DNA of 64,000 nt, taken from Flavivirga amylovorans (GTDB lineage: Bacteria > Bacteroidota > Bacteroidia > Flavobacteriales > Flavobacteriaceae). The notes under the pieces are model-generated. The model saw only the letters and a program-made list of their open reading frames with translations, searched no databases and had not been told where the DNA came from. Made by a program: the position numbers and the translations under genes. This document shows positions 126-17,050 of this stretch, one piece after another; the first letter of the stretch is position 1, and each line of letters opens with the position of its first letter. Where the stretch lies: assembly GCF_030540875.1 (NCBI RefSeq), contig NZ_JAUOEM010000011.1:1-64000 (forward strand), given 5' to 3'.

Positions 126-149
126 TGAAAAGACAGCCTTTTTTGTTTT

Positions 150-319
150 AACCCAGATTATGTATTAGAACTTTGGCATGAAGGTTGAAAATGCAATAAA
201 ATCTATATATTATTAATTTCAGCATAGCACCGCTATGGTCAAATTAAAAAATACAGTAAAACGTTAGATTTTGCAGTAGTTTTAATCTGTAATAGATTTT
301 CTAATGCTTAATACGGGTT
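150..319. repeat. Long-hairpin intergenic repeat, copy 1
   Basis: This is an imperfect inverted repeat of about 170 bp. The left arm AACCCAGATTATGTATTAG (150-168) pairs with CTAATGCTTAATACGGGTT (301-319) at 15 of 19 positions. The 17-mer GCATAGCACCGCTATGG (222-238) lies at the exact centre of symmetry. Two other elements in this window (12120-12277 and 16788-16947) share the centre and the overall size but not the arm sequence. This copy ends nine bases before the ruvX -7 element. I do not recognise it as a named family. Confidence 0.75.
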
Positions 320-327
320 TAATAAAC

Positions 328-10077: not shown

Positions 10078-10163
10078 TGCGCACGAGAAGATTCGAACTT
10101 CCACATCCTAAAACGGATACTGGCCCCTCAAGCCAGCGCGTCTACCAATTCCGCCACGTGCGC
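10078..10163 (-). tRNA. tRNA-Leu (anticodon GAG)
   Basis: The minus-strand cloverleaf starts GCGCACGTGGCGGAATTGGT and has acceptor stem GCGCACG/CGTGCGC with discriminator A. Anticodon arm is CTGGC-TTGAGGG-GCCAG, giving GAG. The class II long variable arm and the TTCGAAT T-loop fit tRNA-Leu. CCA is not encoded. Length is 86 nt. Confidence 0.95.
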
Positions 10164-10568: not shown

Positions 10569-12083
10569 ATGAAAAACAACCTATTAGTTCAAGAATCGAA
10601 TGCAGAAATTACAGATAAAAAAGTAAAAGTTGCCATTGCAGAAGGTGACGGTATTGGTCCAGAAATAATGTCGGCTACTATGGATATTCTGAAAGCAGCA
10701 GGGGCCAATATTGAGACCGAACTTATCGAACTAGGAGAACAGGTTTATTTGTCGGGAAATACATCGGGTATTAAATCGGAATCATGGGATGTAATAAATC
10801 GTACTAAGCTTATCTTAAAAGCTCCAATAACTACACCACAAGGTAAAGGATATAAAAGTTTAAATGTAACACTTAGAAAGTCACTTGGATTATATGCAAA
10901 TGTTCGTCCTGTTAGTTCTTTATACCCATTTGTTAAGACACACTTTCCGAATATGGATGTGGTAATTATAAGAGAGAACGAGGAAGACCTCTATGCTGGA
11001 ATTGAACATCAACAGACACAAGATGTGGTACAATGTCTCAAACTTATTACAAGACCTGGTTGTGAACGAATTATTCGATATGCATTTGAATATGCGAGGG
11101 CCTATGGAAGAAAAAAAGTGACCTGTATGGTGAAAGATAATATCATGAAATTGACAGATGGGTTGTTTCATCAAGTTTTTAATGAGATAGCATTAGATTA
11201 TGATGACATTAAAAGTGACTCTCAGATTATAGACATAGGAGCTGCAAAACTTGCTGCACATCCAGAAAACTATGATGTTGTTGTTACTTCTAATTTATAT
11301 GGAGATATTATTTCAGATATAGCAGCTGAAATAGCTGGTTCAGTAGGGATGGCAGGTTCTGCAAATATTGGTGCTAATGTAGCTATGTTTGAAGCAATTC
11401 ACGGTTCAGCACCTGATATTGCAGGGAAAAATATAGCAAATCCTTCAGGGCTCATTAATGCTGCCGTATTGATGCTGGCTCACATTGGGCAAATAAAGAT
11501 TGCCGATAAAATTAAAAATGCCTGGTTAGCAACACTGGAGCAAGGTTACCATACATCAGATATTTATCAGGAAGGTATTAGTAAAAAGAAAGTCTCTACG
11601 GAAGAATTTGCAAATGAAGTAATATCCAGATTAGGAAACCTGCCAAAAAAACTATCTGTAAGCAAGTTAACTGAAGGGTCGGGAGTTATAAAAACTTTCG
11701 AGTACAAAAGAAAAGAAACAACTAAGGTATTAGTAGGAGTAGATGTTTTTATTCATTGGGAGGGGTCAAACCCAAAAGAAATAGGACAGTCTTTATCTAA
11801 GATTAATTCGTATAATCTAAAATTAAAAATGATTACAAACCGTGGCGTTAAAGTATATCCCAACGGTTTAAAAGAGACTTATTGTACTGATCATTGGAGG
11901 TGTCGATTTGTAGCTTTAGATTCAGAAATACAAAAAGCAGTTCCTGTTTACCATGCTGTCAACTATGAACAAATAATAGCACTTTTATCTAAGCTACAAA
12001 TTAAAGGGTTTGATTGTATAAAAACAGAAAATCTTTATGAGTTTGATGGAAAAAGAGGTTTTTCCCTTGGGCAGGGTGAATAA
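10569..12083 (+). CDS. icd: Isocitrate dehydrogenase, Thermus-type with C-terminal extension
   Basis: 504 residues. The first ~340 residues are the beta-decarboxylating dehydrogenase core: AEGDGIGPEI, the substrate loop SLNVTLRKSLGLYANVRP with catalytic-site arginines, IRENEEDLYAGIEH, and the metal site NLYGDIISDIAAEIAGSVG. The nucleotide region is FEAIHGSAPDIAGKNIANP. The remaining ~150 residues form the extra C-terminal domain seen in Thermus-type and many Bacteroidota enzymes. It oxidises isocitrate to 2-oxoglutarate in the TCA cycle. Cofactor preference cannot be fixed from reading alone. It is monocistronic. Confidence 0.92.
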   Translation: MKNNLLVQESNAEITDKKVKVAIAEGDGIGPEIMSATMDILKAAGANIETELIELGEQVYLSGNTSGIKSESWDVINRTKLILKAPITTPQGKGYKSLNVTLRKSLGLYANVRPVSSLYPFVKTHFPNMDVVIIRENEEDLYAGIEHQQTQDVVQCLKLITRPGCERIIRYAFEYARAYGRKKVTCMVKDNIMKLTDGLFHQVFNEIALDYDDIKSDSQIIDIGAAKLAAHPENYDVVVTSNLYGDIISDIAAEIAGSVGMAGSANIGANVAMFEAIHGSAPDIAGKNIANPSGLINAAVLMLAHIGQIKIADKIKNAWLATLEQGYHTSDIYQEGISKKKVSTEEFANEVISRLGNLPKKLSVSKLTEGSGVIKTFEYKRKETTKVLVGVDVFIHWEGSNPKEIGQSLSKINSYNLKLKMITNRGVKVYPNGLKETYCTDHWRCRFVALDSEIQKAVPVYHAVNYEQIIALLSKLQIKGFDCIKTENLYEFDGKRGFSLGQGE

Positions 12084-12119
12084 AAATAATCACTCCATGT
12101 CAGACTAGATTTATAATTG

Positions 12120-12277
12120 AACTCATCTTGACTTTTTATTTTTAACCGAAAATGAGGAAAAATTTCTTCAGATTAGGCACTTTTAGAAAGGCATAGCATC
12201 GCTACGGATGAAAAAAACAACGAAATATGAAGGAATTTGGACCATTTTTTAGGAAATAGAAAAAGTCAAGATGAGTT
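12120..12277. repeat. Long-hairpin intergenic repeat, copy 2 (best arms)
   Basis: The left arm AACTCATCTTGACTTTTT (12120-12137) is the perfect reverse complement of AAAAAGTCAAGATGAGTT (12260-12277). The interior is also partly complementary (AAAATGaGG..TTCTTCA against its mirror). GCATAGCATCGCTACGG (12191-12207) sits at the exact centre. The arm sequence differs from copies 1 and 3, yet pairing is kept. It fills most of the gap between icd and the 94-residue gene. Confidence 0.85.
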
Positions 12278-12308
12278 TATTAAAAAGAATTACGCAAAAA
12301 GATAACGA

Positions 12309-12593
12309 ATGAACTATATTTATAATAATATTAAATTGGTTGAAGGTATTTATTCCCCGGTTAATTCTGCCGATGTATTATTATCCCTGATAGCTGATAA
12401 AATGAAATTTCATAATCTTCAGATCTTAAATGCGAAGCACGAAAATGATCCAAAAATAGTCCACGCGAAAATGAGGATAGAGGATCTTAAAGCATCCCGA
12501 AAATTGATTACTGAGTTGATTATTAAAGCACGTGACGAAGGATATTATATGAAAATAGATGGGATAATAAATATTGAAATGATTAAAAAATAA
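12309..12593 (+). CDS. Small protein of unknown function (94 aa)
   Basis: 94 residues, begins MNYIYNNIKLVEGIYSPVNS and contains an amphipathic, lysine-rich helix-forming second half. No signal peptide, membrane segment or motif I recognise. It starts 31 bases after hairpin repeat copy 2. Codon use looks like that of its neighbours, so it is probably a real gene. Confidence 0.55.
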   Translation: MNYIYNNIKLVEGIYSPVNSADVLLSLIADKMKFHNLQILNAKHENDPKIVHAKMRIEDLKASRKLITELIIKARDEGYYMKIDGIINIEMIKK

Positions 12594-16735: not shown

Positions 16736-16787
16736 AAAAAAATAAGAATATATTCAGAACAATTTTGATTTCTTTCTATATAATAAT

Positions 16788-16947
16788 GAAGTGATTTAAA
16801 CTTTTTGTGTTTAAGCGAAAATTAATCATTTTTTGAATCATTTGAAGGCTTTTTTAAGTTGCATAGCAGAGCTACGGAAGGCAAAAAAGACAAAAATGAA
16901 CTAAAAAGGGCAATTTTTTAGTAAATGGAAAAAGTTTAAATGACTTC
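16788..16947. repeat. Long-hairpin intergenic repeat, copy 3
   Basis: GAAGTGATTTAAACTTTTT (16788-16806) pairs with AAAAAGTTTAAATGACTTC (16929-16947) at 18 of 19 positions. GCATAGCAGAGCTACGG (16861-16877) lies at the centre. It differs from copy 2 in the arms but keeps the shared ACTTTTT/AAAAAGT inner end. Confidence 0.85.
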
Positions 16948-17050
16948 AATACTTCGCATTTGGAAAAAAAACAATGTCTATTATATATAAATTCTTAGTA
17001 AATTTATTTTTTTTAAGTTTTTGGTTTACTTTTTGGGAATTACTAATATT

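Follow-up and report, generated by a model that had tools for sequence, protein, structure and literature searches.

What a group of intergenic hairpins with one centre and changing arms is for, and how it came to lie where it does, is the question raised by this locus. The window (the whole stretch of DNA analysed, 64,000 nucleotides of Flavivirga amylovorans) contains three such hairpins, which an initial annotation, made from the sequence alone, described as a single family with a fixed 17-base centre and self-complementary arms, pointing either to selection on folded RNA or single-stranded DNA, or else to a mobile palindrome processed as a hairpin.

Three insertions of two classes

All three elements were recovered, and the centre is as fixed as had been described: the pattern GCATAGCANNGCTAYGG matches each with 0 mismatches, and at up to 2 mismatches the window holds these 3 matches against 0.04 expected in shuffles. 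Their bounds had to be corrected to those in Table 1, at which every element has exact ends and perfect flanking duplications (TSDs), of 5, 3 and 3 bp for copies 1, 2 and 3 respectively, so that all three copies are to be read as insertions. A single family holds good for the common tip; by their ends the copies fall into two classes, copies 2 and 3 having IS5-type ends (class 1) and copy 1 IS1380-type ends (class 2). The window hairpins are small gene-less mobile DNA elements (MITEs), short and non-coding (160-166 bp), with a TSD of fixed length and with terminal inverted repeats (TIRs) that are common to autonomous transposons in relatives.

Each copy folds better than its dinucleotide shuffles do (z -3.9 for copy 1; Table 1 for the others), with 1/200 shuffles folding as well for copy 1 and 0/200 for each of copies 2 and 3. 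That arm sequence differs between copies is true between subfamilies and between genera; members of one subfamily have almost the same outer arms.

Table 1. Positions of the three elements, their flanking duplications, inverted repeats and tips in the window.
Feature	Position	Strand	Description and evidence
Copy 1, class 2 element	152..317 (166 bp)	+	IS1380-type ends CCCAGATTATGTATTAGAA / TTCTAATGCTTAATACGGG; exact ends, comparison with IS, class alignment, covariation
Copy 1, left TSD	147..151	.	TTTAA (5 bp), perfect duplication
Copy 1, right TSD	318..322	.	TTTAA, perfect duplication
Copy 1, conserved 17-nt hairpin tip	222..238	+	GCATAGCACCGCTATGG; pattern search, class alignment
Copy 2, class 1 element, subfamily C	12119..12278 (160 bp)	+	Ends GAACTCATCTTGACTTTTT / AAAAAGTCAAGATGAGTTT; TIR, TSD, fold z -5.9
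Copy 2, left TSD	12116..12118	.	ATT (3 bp), perfect duplication
Copy 2, right TSD	12279..12281	.	ATT, perfect duplication
Copy 2, left TIR	12119..12137	+	TIR pattern match
Copy 2, right TIR	12260..12278	-	TIR pattern, 1 mismatch
Copy 2, conserved 17-nt hairpin tip	12191..12207	+	GCATAGCATCGCTACGG; pattern search
Copy 3, class 1 element, subfamily B	16788..16947 (160 bp)	+	Ends GAAGTGATTTAAACTTTTT / AAAAAGTTTAAATGACTTC; TIR, TSD, BLAST, fold z -4.6
Copy 3, left TSD	16785..16787	.	AAT (3 bp), perfect duplication
Copy 3, right TSD	16948..16950	.	AAT, perfect duplication
Copy 3, left TIR	16788..16806	+	TIR pattern match
Copy 3, right TIR	16929..16947	-	TIR pattern match
Copy 3, conserved 17-nt hairpin tip	16861..16877	+	GCATAGCAGAGCTACGG; pattern search

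Copies in the Flavivirga amylovorans genome

The initial annotation had staked its family on further copies in this genome, and there are many. The looser pattern GCATAGCNNNGCTAYGG, allowing 2 mismatches, gives 75 matches in the 4.86-Mb genome and its reversed control 9, counts in which palindromic sites may appear on both strands. BLAST with one copy locates members of subfamilies A and B at 40 or more sites on the matching strand (6 of these sites recur on the opposite strand, and there is 1 short chance match); with 40 of 119 first-look candidates scored, this copy number is a lower bound. Pairing of ends yielded 57 pairs, and since 3 of these are second pairings of ends already counted, the genome contains at least 54 class 1 elements. 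A 3-bp TSD flanks 46 of the 57 pairs against 5.0 expected when flanks are swapped between elements, and among these pairs no other TSD width stands out.

Class 1 elements have 19-bp TIRs, and their ends distinguish three subfamilies in this genome: A (GAACTCATTTAGACTTTTT), B (that of copy 3, GAAGTGATTTAAACTTTTT) and C (that of copy 2, GAACTCATCTTGACTTTTT). Most are 160 bp long, with variants of 84, 95, 113, 181-182 and 256 bp. That copies which hardly differ lie, TSDs intact, in many unrelated places indicates recent spread. The 113-bp variant, whose left arm is 47 nt shorter, is present at 3 sites (L014, L030, L043), each with its own TSD, and the shortened-arm or tip-less variants as a whole (113, 95 and 84 bp) bear TSDs, from which it follows that the hairpin is inessential for transposition. 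The proposal of a mobile palindrome is thus borne out by TIRs, TSDs, copy number and transposons with the same ends (see below), and its other part, that the element is processed as a hairpin when it transposes, is not supported, given the 113-bp variant. Helical phasing of element length, which we considered by hand, was dropped because the length variants carry TSDs.

Smaller elements are found within some copies. Four of subfamily C (L053, L057, L060 and L061, on C8, C10, C1 and C6) have about 21 bp of additional sequence centred on a small palindrome of the CCCGCCTGCCGG type; its position within one arm is the same in all four, and every copy has its own TSD. Subfamily A copies L044 and L055 bear another small palindrome, TCCCGCAAATGCGGGA. 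The hairpin arm seems to receive insertions of small palindromes. Elsewhere, two class 1 left ends about 1.8 kb apart (C1:563985 and C1:565795; L050, 486 and 2296) have an identical upstream flank, TTGTTATTACTTGTATT, and a sulfatase-like ORF between them, an arrangement suggestive of a segmental duplication that began at a MITE.

Insertion sequences with the same ends

Transposase families were searched in 21 genomes with copies, and the flanks of the matches were then scanned for element ends. An IS5-family insertion sequence (IS) of 927-929 bp with ends GAAGTGATTTAAACTTTTT / GAACTCATTTAAACTTTTT was found at L299, L301 and L302, with close variants at L297/L300 (one locus, 927 bp) and L284 (917 bp), making five distinct loci in two genomes. 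Its transposase scores 119.8 bits against NCBIfam NF033580 (cut-off 110), and three of the five loci have TSDs (ATT at L302, ATT at L301, ATA at L297/L300), which are absent at L299 and L284. For class 2 the partner is one locus, an IS1380-family IS in genome G177, whose transposase scores 226 bits against NF033539 (cut-off 180) and which has the left end TTAAA-CCTGCATTATGCAATAGG, a right end in CAGG and the TSD TTAAA on both sides. The left end of copy 3 is identical to that of the IS5-family IS at 19/19 positions, and the left end of copy 1 to that of the IS1380-family IS at 16/24, against 4-8 positions when the wrong IS is used as a control. These comparisons show the outer ends to be those of DDE transposons of related genomes, an IS5-family IS for class 1 (copies 2 and 3) and an IS1380-family IS for class 2 (copy 1).

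The interiors are another matter. Element interiors resemble IS interiors no better than shuffles do in 15 of 16 comparisons, the sixteenth (copy 3 with L302) being matched by 4/100 shuffles, and no tip was found in the IS bodies, at up to 4 mismatches for the IS5 family and up to 3 for the IS1380 family. With interiors unlike either IS, one hairpin body goes with two transposase systems.

The genome of F. amylovorans itself gave 0 matches to PF13586, 0 to PF13701 and three to PF01609, of which two loci were inspected and have no class 1 or class 2 ends; without a PF13586 or PF13701 transposase the elements of this genome may no longer be able to move, unless a partner escaped the search. Lone TIRs in this genome and in 40 loci of relatives led to no transposase with these ends, many being decayed copies, and a generic scan of loci for ISs with a 3-bp TSD found none with these ends. 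A transposase-like fragment beside an end in L057, itself with no Pfam match, had raised the idea of IS982 (PF13612) as the class 1 partner, which was rejected on finding that the IS982-like elements of relatives with readable ends have other ends.

Two further features of these ISs are recorded here. In the IS5-family IS (L297-L302) the leader of the transposase gene has an inverted repeat of its own, GGGTTGC...GCAACCC, immediately internal to the left end. Another small element, with inverted repeats and the ends CAATGTC(A/G)TTAAGTTAA (L058 2064-2197; L308 about 1501-1637), sits inside a class 1 copy of F. amylovorans and in the right end of the G177 IS1380-family IS; it is a second MITE-like family common to these two genomes.

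Distribution among relatives and in other phyla

In the Flavobacteriaceae, where the initial annotation proposed to search, 42 of 397 genomes, belonging to 38 of 237 genera, contain the exact 17-mer, with as many as 36 copies in one genome, and 0 contain the reversed pattern. When named genome contigs were scanned, at least 115 stretches matched it; among the matches listed are Cyclobacteriaceae, Saprospiraceae, Lewinella, Algoriphagus, Roseivirga and Aquimarina, together with a few Proteobacteria, Planctomycetes and one actinobacterium. By their ends, 164 distinct matches (those of F. amylovorans included) divide into 82 of class 1, 41 of class 2, a group that contains some wrongly assigned elements, and 41 of neither; the last, without paired ends at the expected distance, comprise chance-like single matches in high-GC genomes and truncated or odd-length elements.

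Class 1 elements with IS5-type ends in other genomes, about 160 bp long, have a 3-bp TSD in 25 of 48 cases against 2.5 expected. In class 2 elements, which are roughly 162-167 bp long and whose ends are CCCGNATTATGCATTAGAA, a 5-bp TTNAA duplication is seen in 17 of 39 cases against 6.2 expected, in a set that contains some misassigned or spurious rows; as the middle 3 bp alone are duplicated in 21 of 39 against 9.2 expected, a 3-bp TSD is also a possible reading of class 2. Elements of a further end type, ATACCA, have TNA duplications in 5 of 8 cases (2.1 expected). In an uncultured Cyclobacteriaceae (L109 1306-2602), three class 2 centres follow one another in direct orientation at exactly 640-bp spacing, the class 2 element there being part of a tandem array.

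The 17-mer also reaches Gammaproteobacteria. It is present exactly in 2 of 274 genomes (reversed control, 1/274), one being the Lysobacter genome from which we started and the other containing it as a centred element (L366). In three genomes, one of them Lysobacter, it sits in multicopy elements: a longer core pattern, allowed up to 1 mismatch, is matched 7, 22 and 27 times there and 0 times in controls. The elements read have ends such as CTAG-TGTCCTGTCCCGG or CTAG-TGTGGTGA; a search for the CTAG-type partner among PF01609 loci of four Gammaproteobacteria genomes found no end pair, its one match being single-sided with 3 mismatches (L375). A plasmid collection contained no match to the Lysobacter element or to the class 1 element of F. 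amylovorans.

Covariation of the arms around a fixed tip

We aligned each class separately. Of 57 class 1 elements with distinct ends, alignment A1 contains 47, because six F. amylovorans elements and L073, L101, L138 and L175 were removed by hand; A2 contains 20 class 2 elements, namely the window copy, replacing L005, and 19 of the 38 other class 2 entries, leaving out misassigned class 1 elements (L009, L026, L084, L086, L117, L151, L182) and near-duplicates. The consensus fold of A1 has 27 pairs, 22 of them with double changes, in which 91.7% of cells are paired (66.1% shuffled, 50-59% with partners slid), 305 cells are double-changed (98 in shuffles) and the covariation score is 0.651 (0.193 shuffled). 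No shuffle was as high on these three measures; on one of the five measures, the number of pairs with any double change, the 22 observed compare with 19.8, and 35/500 shuffles were as high. In A2, 39 of 57 pairs have double changes against 22.8, and the score is 0.449 against 0.183 shuffled and at most 0.092 slid, the covariation here including the element ends. These scores agree in both classes with the earlier suggestion that the arms are selected to pair.

Would this pattern be expected of an ordinary MITE, its arms similar owing to the need of a transposase for two similar ends, and its middle conserved through common ancestry? Such a reading accounts for the TIRs, the TSDs and the transposons with the same ends, and transcripts of MITEs are in general said to form stem-loops (PMC10969869). 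The double changes of class 1, which are many, are found in helices 49-63/117-130 and 71-76/104-110 of A1, however, and since the counted pairs lie internal to the TIRs, end recognition cannot explain them. Nor does it fit that two classes differing in ends and TSDs have one tip, and it gives no reason for the strand asymmetry described below; we regard it as highly improbable.

Invariance of the tip in A1 and A2 is by construction, as the elements were fetched by the 17-mer. Selection by IS5-type TIRs alone (40 loci) gave 16 full-length elements, 13 of which have the tip within 4 mismatches and 9 a 3-bp TSD; orientation was ambiguous in 4 of the 16, which were left as read. Taken together, the data show the body to be a covarying hairpin with an almost fixed tip, GCATAGCANNGCTAYGG, common to both classes and to the elements of the three Gammaproteobacteria genomes. 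Two elements of genome G033 (L261 and L275) have class 1 ends and a different middle, in which the same short stem closes another loop (CATAGC...GCTATG around about four bases); this suggests that the tip stem can persist with a changed loop.

Strand asymmetry and orientation with respect to genes

Taking as the + strand that on which the tip reads GCATAGCANNGCTAYGG, we compared the mismatches that the arms retain. Class 1 arms have 280 G-T and 84 A-C mismatches, compared with 300 and 175 when right arms are dealt among elements (Fisher p 2e-5 on these counts, relatedness ignored), and the outer 22 nt have 90 and 12 compared with 108 and 57 for swapped arms. Purine-purine mismatches are kept more than pyrimidine-pyrimidine ones (591 and 137, against 782 and 348 swapped). 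In the class 2 set, which has some misassigned rows, the G-T and A-C counts are 219 and 87 against 237 and 145 swapped. The + strand also folds better, in 55 of 57 class 1 elements (mean 14.6 kcal/mol) and in 21 of 23 class 2 elements (mean 13.0 kcal/mol; 23 of 39 after 16 were removed), whereas in DNA flanking class 1 elements it does so in 56 of 108. Shuffled arms favour the + strand too (156/171, mean 6.6 kcal/mol), as this strand is richer in G than in C; that composition is itself strand-specific, and only the folding excess is due to arrangement.

When every ORF of 240 nt or longer that lies within 600 nt is taken as a gene, the + strand is the transcribed strand for 37 of the 48 class 1 elements with same-direction flanking genes (p 0.0002), a tendency seen both in F. 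amylovorans (14/19) and in other genomes (23/29). For class 2 the split is 11 to 7 (11/18), which is not significant, in a set with some misassigned rows.

These results bear on the choice, posed at the outset, between folded RNA and single-stranded DNA. If the palindrome acted as single-stranded or cruciform DNA, a strand would fold during transposition or replication, a recombinase would read the tip, and arm pairing would join the ends. Nearly full-length palindromes of fairly constant length (the class 1 and class 2 lengths given above) and strong covariation, in class 2 extending to the ends, are what such a process would leave, and the mismatch spectrum is compatible with it, G-T being better tolerated than A-C in single-stranded DNA too. 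It is at odds with the 3- and 5-bp duplications at precise inverted repeats, which match double-strand DDE integration, with the 113-bp variant lying at three sites with different TSDs, and with an orientation that follows flanking genes, which DNA processing does not predict. We therefore consider a DNA function unlikely, and of the two structures first proposed the strand evidence favours RNA over a DNA hairpin intermediate.

A transcribed hairpin could also be one that the host keeps as a terminator, attenuator or RNA-processing site and that derives from a MITE only incidentally. Its placement would suit this: of 28 F. amylovorans copies tested, 0 run into an ORF that reaches 240 nt (6 of 51 class 1 copies in other genomes do), their median position is 35 nt after a same-direction gene, and copy 2 itself is flanked by one ORF that ends at 12083 and another that starts at 12309. 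Scanning of either strand of copies 2 and 3 found no terminator-like site, however, and the recent spread of near-identical copies with intact TSDs over many unrelated sites speaks against a host element, so that we hold this origin to be very unlikely.

Proposed mechanism and implications

A selected RNA hairpin fits best among these readings of the sequence, and it is apparently the hairpin as such that evolution preserves. We consider it probable that the elements are MITEs with IS5- and IS1380-type ends whose hairpin body is kept as transcribed RNA. They would be, or would have been, moved in trans by IS5- and IS1380-family transposases, and the body would be retained because its + strand, transcribed within the RNA of neighbouring genes, folds compactly, as the strand evidence suggests. 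Thanks to the hairpin, an insertion into transcribed intergenic DNA is probably tolerated, the RNA being shielded or processed in the manner of ERIC and NEMIS hairpins, and the element can probably spread. The fixed tip and the purine-rich internal mismatches could form a putative binding site for a widely conserved RNA-binding protein or ribonuclease, which is a guess on our part.

A bolder extension, to which we give somewhat less than even chances, is that the hairpin is the unit of selection: an RNA module, read via its GCAUAGCANNGCUAYGG tip by a conserved protein or ribonuclease, that has repeatedly switched transposon ends. It would then constitute a family of mobile non-coding RNAs tied to no single transposase. 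Its vehicles would include ends of IS5-type, IS1380-type and further putative transposons (ATACCA..., AAGTACCGGGACTG..., CTAG-TGTCCTGTCCCGG...) in Bacteroidota and Gammaproteobacteria. The usual view of MITEs in bacteria is that of decayed insertion sequences with a leftover interior; here it is the interior that is conserved and the ends that can be exchanged, and the covariation and strand bias are of a kind by which functional RNAs are recognised. If this is true, the 17-nt tip hairpin would be a pull-down handle on an RNA-binding activity common to phyla, and the family would provide natural replicates, one RNA at dozens of sites per genome, showing how mobile hairpins change transcripts.

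Comparison with known families

The window elements have no Rfam 15 match at the gathering threshold, in keeping with the annotation, which knew of no named family with this centre. Copy 2 has only sub-threshold matches, mostly to eukaryotic miRNA hairpins, and the Lysobacter element has no match. A tRNA gene at 10078-10163 on the - strand is the only match in the window at that threshold. The 17-mer strings were not found printed in the literature searched, in which, by title and abstract and with subscription literature mostly outside, no paper describes the family.

Integron attC sites have conserved bases at their outer ends and a variable tip; the arrangement here is the reverse, a conserved tip with variable ends, which sets the elements outside that group. 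REP/REPIN palindromes, moved by a RAYT transposase, are not known to have a TIR or a TSD, whereas the present elements, 160 bp long, have both and do not belong with them. REP/REPIN units are 20-40 bp long, as given in the abstract of PMC3733652.

Closer likenesses are found among MITE-like repeats, described here from the accessible parts of the papers cited. MITECca01 of Cardinium (PMC9769881) is likewise short and without a transposase, has the TIRs of a resident IS and many mostly intergenic copies, and is thought to be moved in trans; it differs in keeping some IS sequence within its ends and in not having been found in other sequenced Cardinium strains, whereas the present body is unlike its partner IS, covaries, and is common to elements of different IS families and across phyla. 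Neither the accessible part of that paper nor that of a stem-loop survey (PMC2267715) mentions such a case. In our elements, mobilisation by IS5- and IS1380-family transposases would be the counterpart of movement by the resident IS, judging from the ends in common.

Other families resemble the elements in the RNA that they form. ERIC/IRU (RU-1), a 127-bp enterobacterial intergenic repeat, is co-transcribed and forms an RNA hairpin affecting mRNA stability, and is listed with 5'-TA termini rather than the 3- or 5-bp TSDs found here (PMC2229807, PMC10969869); by its description it is set apart further, as the present ends vary from one relative to another around an unchanging tip. Correia/NEMIS elements of Neisseria are MITEs of 107/155 bp whose transcript hairpins are processed by RNase III; unlike ours they have a 24-bp TIR and TA termini, and the accessible parts of the same two papers describe no tip common to transposon families. 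YPAL/RU-2 of Yersinia, a 168-bp palindromic intergenic element that might influence upstream transcripts, has internal inverted repeats and TSDs of 3-26 bp, whereas the repeats here are terminal and the TSD is fixed per class, and CIR of Caulobacter/Brucella, a repeat with a phylogenetically conserved GANTC motif at an RNA stem-loop tip, differs in having two arms with a linker and in not being tied to IS ends (both PMC2229807). By analogy, the elements may work like ERIC, NEMIS and YPAL, as MITE-like RNA-hairpin repeats affecting neighbouring transcripts (PMC2229807, PMC10969869); what differs from ERIC and NEMIS, going by their descriptions, is the TSD and the exchange of ends around a fixed tip.
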